30,064 nt of DNA from a virus. The position numbers and the translations under genes are program-made. Positions 1,854 to 3,843 of the stretch are shown here, in pieces. The notes below the pieces were generated by a model. It was not told where the DNA came from, made no database searches, and worked only from the letters and a program-made list of their open reading frames with translations. How positions within the stretch are numbered: position 1 is the first letter of the stretch; each line of letters begins with the position of its first letter. The stretch covers positions 1-30,064 of the IMG/VR virus record IMGVR_UViG_3300047557_002762; one strand, written 5' to 3'.

Positions 1854-2064
1854 TAGACTGGGTTTTTGTATAGAACCCATAAATCGTGTGGATAATCGCT
1901 GGCGTCTAATAGTCAGCACCCAGGACGGGGCAAAAACCATAGGTATTTTTAGCCGCGAAGAAATAAAGGCTTTTGCTGCCAAGTTAGAGGCAGAAGCCAC
2001 CACTTTACGGGTGACTTCGTGTGCGTTATTACACAAAACAAAAATGACCATAAACAATGAGTGA
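1843..2064 (+). CDS. Small hypothetical protein (GTG start)
   Basis: The 73-residue product starts at GTG 1843, inside the end of the previous gene. A Shine-Dalgarno sequence GGGAGG at 1829-1834 lies 8 bases upstream and decides the start. The protein has a beta-like N-terminal half (RWRLIVSTQDG) and a short amphipathic helix (SREEIKAFAAKLEAEATTL). No family is recognised. Its stop overlaps the holin-like gene by 8 bases, which suggests it is translated with the lysis module. Function unknown. Confidence 0.55.
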   Translation: MLLDRLGFCIEPINRVDNRWRLIVSTQDGAKTIGIFSREEIKAFAAKLEAEATTLRVTSCALLHKTKMTINNE

Positions 2065-2308
2065 TCTTGAACGCACAAACCTTGAAGCACACGCAGATCT
2101 CTGTGCTGAACGCTACAAACAACTGGCACAGGCCCTGGATTCAATGGATCAACGGCTGACCAAACTGGAAAACTCCATCCAGGACATACACACTATGCTG
2201 ATACAGCACCAGAATCAAAATCAGGATCGTTATCTGGGCTGGGCCGCAGTGATCATCACTGTGCTGTTGGGCACCACTGGCTGGTTGATCAATCGTTTAT
2301 TGGCGTGA
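2057..2308 (+). CDS. Holin-like membrane protein (XhlA-like architecture)
   Basis: The 83-residue protein has a charged, heptad-rich helix at about residues 15-55 and a single C-terminal membrane segment at about 60-78, starting LGWAAVIITVLLG. It ends with a short polar tail (NRLLA). This coiled-coil plus C-terminal membrane layout matches XhlA-type holin accessory proteins of many phages, which act in the cytoplasmic membrane during lysis. It is the last protein gene of the late transcript before the structured RNA and terminator, a usual place for lysis genes. No endolysin lies beside it. A spanin or other membrane role is possible. Confidence 0.6.
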   Translation: MSDLERTNLEAHADLCAERYKQLAQALDSMDQRLTKLENSIQDIHTMLIQHQNQNQDRYLGWAAVIITVLLGTTGWLINRLLA

Positions 2309-2328
2309 TCGCAGGTGCCTGATAAATA
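2300..2328 (+). promoter_or_regulatory. Candidate promoter for the structured RNA
   Basis: TTGGCG (2300-2305) and TAAATA (2323-2328) are separated by 17 bases. A start near 2335 would fall at the beginning of the closing helix of the structured RNA. The -35 box is weak, so the RNA may instead be made by processing of the late transcript. Confidence 0.35.
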
Positions 2329-2332
2329 CTTT

Positions 2333-2528
2333 GTGTGCGAGGCGGCCCCAATCCCCTAAAGTGCGAGGCTAAACGCAGTCTGGAGTAGGCAGACCACTCA
2401 TCGCTCCGCTTGAGCAAATGAGTTCTTCCAAAGTGTCTATGTGCCATAGATGTCCCTTTTACCTACTCGCTTCGCACACTCCTTCCTTCCGCAAAGTCAA
2501 ACGAGCCCTGCTGTAACAGGGCTTTTTT
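2333..2528 (+). ncRNA. Structured non-coding RNA with pseudoknot, ending in an intrinsic terminator
   Basis: No good reading frame fills this gap, but it folds strongly. Helix P1 pairs 2333-2343 with 2469-2479 (11 bp, one G-U). Hairpin A (2378-2382 with 2390-2394) has the 7-nt loop GAGUAGG, all of which can pair with CCUACUC at 2462-2468, directly adjacent to P1, giving a pseudoknot that could stack on P1. Hairpin B pairs 2396-2401 with 2418-2423 and, inside it, 2403-2406 with 2412-2415. Hairpin C pairs 2436-2441 with 2445-2450. The 9-nt word GUGCGAGGC occurs twice (2335-2343, 2361-2369), and either copy can pair with the same 3' strand. A pyrimidine-rich segment with CUCCUU (2479-2484) leads to the terminator. 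I do not recognise it as tRNA, tmRNA, RNase P RNA, 6S RNA or a hammerhead. Confidence 0.7.
2504..2528 (+). terminator. Rho-independent terminator (end of late transcript / ncRNA)
   Basis: A 7-bp stem, AGCCCTG (2504-2510) with CAGGGCT (2517-2523), has a 6-nt loop and a run of six T from 2523. It ends the late transcript that passes through the contig junction and forms the 3' end of the structured RNA. It also insulates the polymerase promoter that begins 14 bases later. Confidence 0.92.
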
Positions 2529-2541
2529 GTTGGCTAAACTG

Positions 2542-2570
2542 TTGCTATTCGCACGACTTGGCTATATAAT
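2542..2570 (+). promoter_or_regulatory. Sigma70-like promoter P1 (polymerase-like gene)
   Basis: TTGCTA (2542-2547), a 17-bp spacer and a perfect TATAAT (2565-2570) predict a start near 2577. That leaves a leader of about 26 bases before the ATG at 2603. It lies just after the terminator at 2504-2528. Confidence 0.85.
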
Positions 2571-2602
2571 GCTACACATTGGCACATCACAAAGGAAGAA
2601 CT

Positions 2603-3652
2603 ATGAACTATCAACCCGTATTCACTGACCCCAGGGTCCTGCGACGAGCCCAGGCTGTTTTGGATTTCCTCAACACCTGGATGGCCGCCACCGCCACACG
2701 ACGCATCAGCAGATCAGTGCTGTATCAGGCCTTTGGCAACACAGCAAGACCGCAGGGCCGTTGGTTCCTGGATCTGTGCTTGGAAAACACTGATCCACAC
2801 TGGAACTATCTCACTGGCAAATGTAAAGAGTATCGTGTGCGTGAAGGAGCCCGCCAACGCCTGTGCGAATTGCTGTGCCAGGATGCCCGCACCGTGACGG
2901 TAAGCACAGCACTACAGCAACAGATGGCGTCAGGTGAGTTTGAATACCAGCACAAGAACAACAGAGATTTCACTCCAGCACAGTTCCTACCGCGTGAAGT
3001 GCGTGAAAGCACCCTGGCCAATCACGGCTACCTATATCACTATGATATCAGATGTGCCGCACCCAGCCTGTTGCTCCAGCGAGCACAGCAACTTGAGCCA
3101 GGATTTACAGCACCGCACATACAGGCATTCTTGGACCAGCGTCACGCATTTAGAACACAGTTGGCTGCTCGTTGCGGTATCACTCACAGCGAGAGCAAAC
3201 GCATCATAACCGCGGTGTTCCTGGGAGCCAGGATCTTGCCGCACTGGCATCAAAATGCCATACTCACGCTGTTGGGCCACGACTATCAACGCTGTGTCGC
3301 TGTGGCACAGGATCCAGAATTCTGTGCCCTACGCACAGACATACGGCGTATGTGGAGTGTGCTGGCACAAGAGATACCCAGACACTGGATCACGGACCGT
3401 CGCGGACATCAACGACGACTGCCAGTGAGTGCTCGTGCCAAAGCCAAAAGGTATTTTGAACTGGAGCATCAGGTGGCACAGGTCATACGCAGGCACCTGC
3501 GTAAGGCCGCGGTGAGATGTCTGTGGCTACACGACGGATGGAGTTCAGATCAGGTCTGTGATCTGCGTGCGATCACACAGCGAGTGAGCACACGCACGGG
3601 TTTTGATTTGGTCATTGAGTGGAACAAGTATCACACGGAGGAGATCTCCTGA
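2603..3652 (+). CDS. Miniature palm-domain polymerase-like protein (T7 RNAP / Pol A superfamily motifs)
   Basis: The product has 349 residues. The ATG at 2603 is chosen because AAGGAAG lies 6-12 bases upstream; an in-frame TTG at 2579 lies at the predicted transcription start. Candidate palm motifs appear in the right order. Motif A is YDIRCAAPSLL with D148; motif B is THSESKRIITAVFLG at 194-208 with K199 and G208; motif C is LWLHDGWSSD at 307-316 with H310 and D311. Motif B resembles the T7 RNA polymerase segment around K631 (TRSVTKRSVMTLAYG), with Leu in place of the sugar-discriminating Tyr and His in place of the upstream Arg. No exonuclease, primase or helicase domain is visible, and it is far shorter than T7 RNAP (883 aa). 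It has its own promoter and terminator. It could be an RNA polymerase, DNA polymerase or primer synthase. The motif reading is fairly secure; the activity is inferred. Confidence 0.6.
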   Translation: MNYQPVFTDPRVLRRAQAVLDFLNTWMAATATRRISRSVLYQAFGNTARPQGRWFLDLCLENTDPHWNYLTGKCKEYRVREGARQRLCELLCQDARTVTVSTALQQQMASGEFEYQHKNNRDFTPAQFLPREVRESTLANHGYLYHYDIRCAAPSLLLQRAQQLEPGFTAPHIQAFLDQRHAFRTQLAARCGITHSESKRIITAVFLGARILPHWHQNAILTLLGHDYQRCVAVAQDPEFCALRTDIRRMWSVLAQEIPRHWITDRRGHQRRLPVSARAKAKRYFELEHQVAQVIRRHLRKAAVRCLWLHDGWSSDQVCDLRAITQRVSTRTGFDLVIEWNKYHTEEIS

Positions 3653-3661
3653 CGGAGATCT

Positions 3662-3697
3662 ATTGGACTCCGCTGACGCAGAGTCCAATGTGTTTTT
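3662..3697 (+). terminator. Rho-independent terminator after the polymerase-like gene
   Basis: A 9-bp stem, ATTGGACTC (3662-3670) with GAGTCCAAT (3681-3689), has a 10-nt loop and is followed by TTTTT at 3693-3697. It makes the polymerase-like gene a single-gene unit. A 10-bp palindrome GGAGATCTCC (3640-3649) lies just before the stop codon. Confidence 0.88.
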
Positions 3698-3793
3698 CAT
3701 CGTGATTATTAGATATTTTTCTTATTATCCATTATATTGCTACACAAGTCACCCTGACCCTGCGTTTTGGGCAAAAAAATCCACCAAATGCCC
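3698..3793. other. Non-coding AT-rich intergenic stretch
   Basis: No gene is supported here. The first 45 bases are strongly AT-rich (ATTATTAGATATTTTTC and similar), which could suit an unwinding region. A short inverted repeat, GGGCA (3769-3773) with TGCCC (3789-3793), abuts the -35 box of the next promoter and might be an operator. Both roles are guesses. Confidence 0.3.
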
Positions 3794-3822
3794 TTGATCT
3801 GTGTGCGAAGCATAAGTATAAT
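3794..3822 (+). promoter_or_regulatory. Sigma70-like promoter P2 (early three-gene cluster)
   Basis: TTGATC (3794-3799), a 17-bp spacer and a perfect TATAAT (3817-3822) give a start near 3829. The Shine-Dalgarno GGAGG at 3831-3835 and the ATG at 3844 follow. Confidence 0.85.
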
Positions 3823-3843
3823 AAAGCAATGGAGGAACTCACT

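Follow-up and report, generated by a model that had tools for sequence, protein, structure and literature searches.

Does the stretch at positions 2333-2528 of this viral DNA encode a discrete RNA and, if so, what might such an RNA do? The DNA analysed (the window) is an IMG/VR virus record of 30,064 bases with genes for terminase, portal, scaffold, major head, tape measure and tail. The terminase shares about 50-63 % identity with its counterparts in HTVC026P/HTVC111P-type pelagiphages, in phage DSL-LC06 and in numerous metagenomic phages. A block of small ORFs, for which relatives are few or absent, extends from approximately 2.6 to 7 kb. The element is located between the gene for an 83-aa protein (end 2308) and an ORF starting at 2603 (Table 1). 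The single ORF of at least 50 aa across it (52 aa) is on the minus strand; otherwise the stretch is non-coding and has a terminator at its end, in agreement with the initial annotation, in which it had been described as a non-coding, structured RNA ending in a strong terminator.

The fold and its chance level

All helices proposed in the initial annotation are present in the sequence: (i) an 11-bp closing helix (P1) that includes one G.U pair, (ii) a hairpin whose complete 7-nt loop is complementary to a strand directly abutting P1 (the proposed pseudoknot), and (iii) further hairpins inside P1. Two additional pairs could lengthen P1, in competition with the pseudoknot strand. The claim that such mutual agreement is unlikely by chance is borne out by dinucleotide shuffling of the whole window (both strands), since the arrangement, defined as a 5-bp Watson-Crick hairpin with its full 7-nt loop complementary to a strand abutting a helix of at least 8 bp (at most one G.U), occurred in 0 of 60 shuffles. 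With the helix requirement relaxed to 6 bp, 0.03 arrangements were obtained per shuffled window, and a looser descriptor, applied to both strands of the window and of 1.39 Mb of related phage DNA, yielded three unrelated matches besides the element. The fold z-score of 2325-2530 against shuffles is -3.3.

Nested folding favours GAGUAG/CUACUC as an extension of P1, opening the GUCUG/CAGAC stem (minimum free energy of -50.0 kcal/mol versus -45.9 kcal/mol for the annotated helices without the pseudoknot; about -9.3 kcal/mol for the loop duplex alone). In these models, pairing between loop and strand is favourable either way and a true pseudoknot is not required. The contact is plausible and its pseudoknotted form uncertain, since the nested fold pairs the loop with CCTACTC as P1 extension.

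Table 1. Features of the element, its surroundings and related loci
Feature	Position	Strand	Basis
Gene for 83-aa membrane-anchored protein (LERTxLEAHxDLCAxRY family), upstream neighbour of the RNA	2057..2308	+	ORF call
ATAAATA, putative phage late promoter	2322..2328	+	promoter function presumed
TAAATA, candidate phage late promoter	2323, 6514, 7153, 18784, 25157	+	intergenic enrichment
P1 closing helix, 5' strand GTGTGCGAGGC	2333..2343	+	
P1 closing helix, 3' strand GCTTCGCACAC	2469..2479	+	
Small hairpin TGCG/CGCA, arms 2362-2365/2374-2377	2362..2377	+	single-sequence prediction only
Hairpin GTCTG (2378-2382)/CAGAC (2390-2394), 7-nt loop GAGTAGG (2383-2389)	2378..2394	+	
Hairpin ACTCAT/ATGAGT, arms 2396-2401/2418-2423	2396..2423	+	single-sequence prediction
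Inner GCTC/GAGC within hairpin 2396-2423	2403-2406/2412-2415	+	single-sequence prediction
Predicted anti-Shine-Dalgarno segment AGTTCTTCC, complementary to 2594-2602	2421..2429	+	p=0.021
Second complementary block: GTG 2433-2435 to CAC 2588-2590; ATGTGCCA 2439-2446 to TGGCACAT 2580-2587	2433..2446	+	duplex prediction
Hairpin GTCTATG/CATAGAT, arms 2435-2441/2445-2451, loop TGC	2435..2451	+	single-sequence prediction
CCTACTC, complement of the whole loop 2383-2389 (putative pseudoknot), abuts P1	2462..2468	+	
Intrinsic terminator followed by U's, presumed RNA 3' end	2503..2524	+	sequence scan
Sigma-70-type early promoter TTGCTA-17-TATAAT	2542..2570	+	sequence scan
Early transcript leader with Shine-Dalgarno AAGGAAG and start codon 2603; putative antisense target 2580-2602	2571..2605	+	
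First early ORF (349 aa), presumed target gene	2603..3652	+	ORF call
GTGCGARGC copies	2335-2343, 2361-2369, 2469-2477 (inverted), 3803-3811		
RNA2-type stretches	L091:2307-2960 (G006), L188:18713-19330 (G013), L311:4774-5182, L239:2205-2627, L184:573-1327		

Syntenic relatives and covariation of the closing helix

The initial annotation had assigned the element to no known RNA class, and indeed no family of Rfam 15 reached its gathering threshold anywhere in the window, the best sub-threshold matches being terminator look-alikes. A search for tRNA and tmRNA yielded none. Blastn against phage records and related loci matched the element only to itself, as did a covariance model of the window copy run over the whole relatives and loci. 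The exact pattern ACCTACTCGCTTCGC had 22 matches in IMG/VR, none of them with the element, and bacterial genomes searched by terminase provided no additional copy. A near-match of the hairpin in locus L105 was discarded for its position in a coding gene.

Relatives were sought by synteny rather than by sequence, which led to five phages (G019, G008, G013, G006 and G042) holding an RNA of different sequence at the same slot, i.e., between small membrane/Zn-ribbon genes of the late end and a sigma-70 early promoter. These elements are likewise without Rfam match at gathering and permissive thresholds. G008, G013 and G019 have related terminases and an 83-aa homologue, with the element just 3' of a further small ORF (Zn-ribbon) and inner hairpins within its closing helix; a search with the Zn-ribbon gene retrieved only G019 and G008, and G019 was also the sole relevant IMG/VR match of the pattern TAAGGCTGTCA...GGNNTTCC. 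G042 (locus L311) was reached via the 83-aa protein, the other matches of which were mostly loci without the element. G006 (locus L091), found by scanning the loci for TAAATA plus helix, has its genes in this order, including a Zn-ribbon gene and, as counterpart of the 83-aa gene, an analogue of 97 aa; homologues of the 83-aa gene occupy the same place in the other four relatives, and the window itself has no Zn-ribbon gene. A match of TAAATA plus helix in locus L093 falls inside coding sequence and was rejected.

The common order comprises TAAATA, 10-12 nt, a closing helix of 10-14 bp, a terminator (or terminator-like end) and a sigma-70 early promoter. The spacing of 10-12 nt between TAAATA and P1 holds for all six phages (10 nt past the T of TAAATA at 2323 in the window). 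Helices of at least 10 bp at such spacing accompany 0.8 % of the 2,484 TAAATA sites in the DNA examined, true cases included. When the loci collected by then were scanned automatically with a strict descriptor, which required TAAATA, an appropriately spaced helix of 8 bp or more and a terminator, exactly three elements were returned (window, G008 and G019); G006, G013 and G042 were missed due to terminator shape or spacing and were added via a looser scan and inspection. In intergenic gaps of the window upstream of plus-strand genes, TAAATA is enriched (5 versus 1.0 expected, P=0.0045). The motif resembles the core of T4 late promoters and would place the transcription start at about the first base of P1. 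A possible further element of this layout, without terminator, is present between two genes of phage DSL-LC06 (L184:1633-1732), where TAAATA is followed by a closing helix AGGGCGTT...AACGCCCT.

The P1 sequences of the six phages are unrelated. Two pairs of relatives could be aligned when anchored on inner motifs (CATAACGCCATTTG for G013/G006, TAAGGCTGTCA for G019/G008) and P1 was compared from its inner end. Double-sided compensatory changes affect 6 of 11 base pairs in G013/G006 and 8 of 10 in G019/G008, with none broken in either pair. These changes support P1 for the family, the window copy having no alignable homologue among the sequences examined. Within P1, the pattern CATAACGCCATTTG..A..CCTT.ATC.GATTAC is retained between domain 1 of this RNA (RNA1) in G013 (L188) and G006 (L091), though P1 has changed.

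The pseudoknot fared differently: pairing of at least 6 bp between a loop and a strand abutting P1 is absent from all five relatives, and the GTCTG/CAGAC hairpin was not seen in them. Covariation had been named in the initial annotation as one means of checking the fold, and it speaks for the closing helix, whereas the pseudoknot has no counterpart among the relatives and no comparative support. What stands of that annotation is a structured, non-coding RNA outside the Rfam families with an important closing helix; the proposed pseudoknot is a feature of the window only. That annotation suggested no function, and the antisense pairing described below involves leader positions (2580-2602) outside its coordinates.

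Complementarity to the early leader

In all six phages, 9-13 nt of the RNA are perfectly complementary to part of the leader of the early transcript that follows. One statistic was used throughout, namely the length of the longest uninterrupted complementarity of the RNA to the 50 nt past the early -10 box, and was compared to windows of the same contig. It amounts to 9 nt in the window under study (p=.021) and to 10, 10, 12, 13 and 9 nt in the relatives (p=.007,.014,.0011, <.0006 and.011, same order), as compared to mostly 5-8 nt for non-cognate RNA-leader pairs. Fisher combination over the six phages gives about 5e-9, a value to be read with the related pairs not being fully independent, and about 2.5e-5 without G006/G013, the pair where the antisense idea arose. 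By RNAduplex energy, the cognate pair is the best in every row and column. When intramolecular folding is counted, no other gene start outranks the leader in G019, G013 and G042, and in G006 a single one does, an artefactual start of the opposite strand. In the window, the leader ranks 6 of 38 gene starts (p=0.09); the gapped local score gives p=0.07, and plain genome-wide duplex energies do not pick out the leader there. Complementarity beyond chance and kept in evolution is found for the six-phage family, and the antisense signal for the window taken alone is modest.

In the window, AGUUCUUCC (2421-2429) of the RNA pairs perfectly with GGAAGAACU (2594-2602), i.e., from the Shine-Dalgarno sequence up to the AUG at 2603; the RNA segment is predicted to be partly single-stranded (2427-2429 unpaired with p 0.85-0.91). 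In addition, GUG and AUGUGCCA of the second block face a contiguous stretch of the leader (2580-2590). In G006 and G013, GCGGCAATG in the RNA is matched by CATTGCCGC/TTTGCCGC in the next leader with flanking bases changed on both sides, the two partners of the antisense pairing having changed jointly (GCGGCAATGTATT/AATACATTGCCGC versus GCGGCAATGCTA/TAGCTTTGCCGC). In the window, G019 and G008, the putative target belongs to an ORF, as its leader or its translation start region; in G006, G013 and G042, it is the 5' terminus of RNA2, a long non-coding stretch. All six cases would be covered by describing the RNA as antisense to the first early transcript at its 5' end. Together with this complementarity, the window and its relatives share the layout of a late/early junction, i.e., gene context, TAAATA spacing, a helix of at least 10 bp, terminator and promoter.

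In G008, an RNA segment GTGACATTTT is also perfectly complementary to AAAATGTCAC at two early-gene start codons (L095:1818-1827 and 2625-2634), hinting that this RNA could have more than one target.

For the presumed target gene of the window, ORF 2603, neither relatives nor a family match were detected. Its product carries the segments YDIRCAAPSLL, SKRIITAVFLGA and LHDGW, reminiscent of polymerase motifs, and the AlphaFold model is uninformative (pLDDT 39). The idea of a retron or DRT system formed by the RNA and this polymerase-like ORF was dropped, given an ORF without relatives and the low pLDDT.

Proposed function, alternatives and known systems

Structure, synteny, P1 covariation and leader complementarity, as computed for the six phages, probably indicate a discrete, late-transcribed phage sRNA that is antisense to the first early transcript and represses it, a reading that we hold with moderate confidence. 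An RNA of about 190 nt would start at P1 (~2333) from the TAAATA-type late promoter and end at the terminator (~2528). The long closing helix would hold a presentation domain displaying the segment complementary to the following unit's 5' leader, the presumed target in the window being the stretch from Shine-Dalgarno to AUG of ORF 2603. Being formed late, the RNA would act in trans by pairing with the first early mRNA, whose translation would stop; we infer repression here rather than activation. In relatives with an early unit beginning in a long non-coding RNA, it would mask the 5' end of that RNA, and ribosome-binding site masking cannot explain everything, since the target leader precedes non-coding RNA in three relatives. 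The outcome would be to help the phage switch from early to late expression. The unique pseudoknot of the window is left unexplained by this model.

In each of the six phages, RNA and target are neighbours on one strand, a condition of intramolecular pairing though not of action in trans. Late read-through might join the RNA and the leader of the early unit in a single transcript, the complementarity serving as a cis-acting insulator: with the ribosome-binding site of the early unit masked, late read-through mRNA would not yield early proteins. We regard this as unlikely, though not far-fetched: a strong terminator and the early unit's own sigma-70 promoter stand between RNA and target, and three relatives (G006, G013 and G042) have the 5' terminus of a non-coding RNA as their target. 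The terminator, the separate promoter and the geometry with a long P1 at the start of the transcript favour a discrete RNA.

It appears clearly improbable that the pseudoknot serves as a core for catalysis or for the binding of a ligand or protein, as in a riboswitch, a ribozyme or an RNA for packaging or host-factor binding, with the complementarity to the leader being fortuitous in this phage. The failure of shuffling to reproduce the pseudoknot/helix arrangement and the fold z-score speak for such a core, but the element has no Rfam match, the pseudoknot is missing from all syntenic relatives, and leader complementarity recurs throughout the six phages. Four exact copies of GTGCGARGC within 1.5 kb, one of them in the spacer of the promoter at 3794-3822, could in turn be taken for operator, origin or packaging sites in the DNA with the helix as a by-product. 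This can hardly be expected to hold, since copies counted with one mismatch do not exceed chance, the repeat was not seen in the relatives, whose unrelated P1 sequences still pair, and the context is that of a terminator and a promoter.

Compared to known systems, the repressing sRNA favoured here differs in the placement of its gene. In ColE1, RNA I and RNA II overlap, being on opposite strands. Likeness to this pair consists in an antisense RNA, small and folded, that is directed at the 5' region of a long structured RNA (G006, G013), whereas the present genes are separate and on the same strand; the arrangement is what is likened, with no replication role implied. T4 RegA is a protein repressing early mRNAs at ribosome-binding sites, and the RNA of the window would perform a similar task of early shut-off as RNA. 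Post-transcriptional control in T4 has been reviewed (PMC3014915). The small antisense RNA sar of phage P22 base-pairs with a phage mRNA, on which it prevents translation initiation, and the OOP RNA of lambda is a short phage RNA antisense to the cII gene (PMC12197685). The sRNA proposed here resembles sar in being small, phage-encoded and antisense, with unrelated sequence. While sar is cis-encoded, RNA and target are here same-strand neighbours, with short segments displayed by a folded domain; the RNA (2333-2528) and the leader (2571-2605) do not overlap and so fall outside the cis-encoded class of sar and OOP. PreS of lambda and VpdS are base-pairing phage sRNAs described together with the chaperone Hfq (PMC12197685), a mode of action predicted here as far as base pairing is concerned. 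However, PreS acts on host dnaN, whereas the pairing evidence here involves the phage's own adjacent early transcript. New with respect to known phage antisense sRNAs would be the adjacent, same-strand, non-overlapping genes and the full sequence turnover with pairing kept.

Phage regulatory RNAs are known mostly from few enterobacterial phages, and the present family stems from uncultured ones. It is invisible to sequence search, its copies being mostly unalignable, and was revealed by synteny, the compensated closing helix and the conserved antisense relation. If confirmed, it would provide small phages with an RNA-based early shut-off, make phage sRNA genes findable by position and pairing instead of homology, and point to a second, larger RNA (RNA2) in the same phages.

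Such a second non-coding stretch (400-750 nt) follows or adjoins the early promoter in relatives. The RNA2 copies of G006 and G013 share 68 % identity over 580 nt and contain no long ORF and no Rfam match; parts of RNA2 reach fold z-scores down to about -6.9, and it appears to be a large structured RNA that has not been described. One may speculate, tentatively and as a rather unlikely case, that the early-to-late switch is run by an adjacent, fast-evolving RNA pair, with the late sRNA (RNA1) silencing the 5' end of the early unit, which is RNA2 in relatives (400-660 nt). If true, this would constitute a tandem RNA-RNA control module following a logic like that of ColE1 RNA I/RNA II, with pairing kept through complete sequence turnover.

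Further repeats were observed around the element. The GTGCGARGC copy at 2361-2369 is an alternative partner for the 3' strand of P1. The intergenic gap at 3653-3828 contains the inverted repeats GGAGATCTCCTGACGGAGATC and TTGGACTCCGCTGACGCAGAGTCCAA (fold z about -2.5) and a sigma-70-type promoter at 3794-3822; in the spacer of this promoter of ORF 3829, positions 3801-3811 form an 11-nt perfect complement of 2469-2479.
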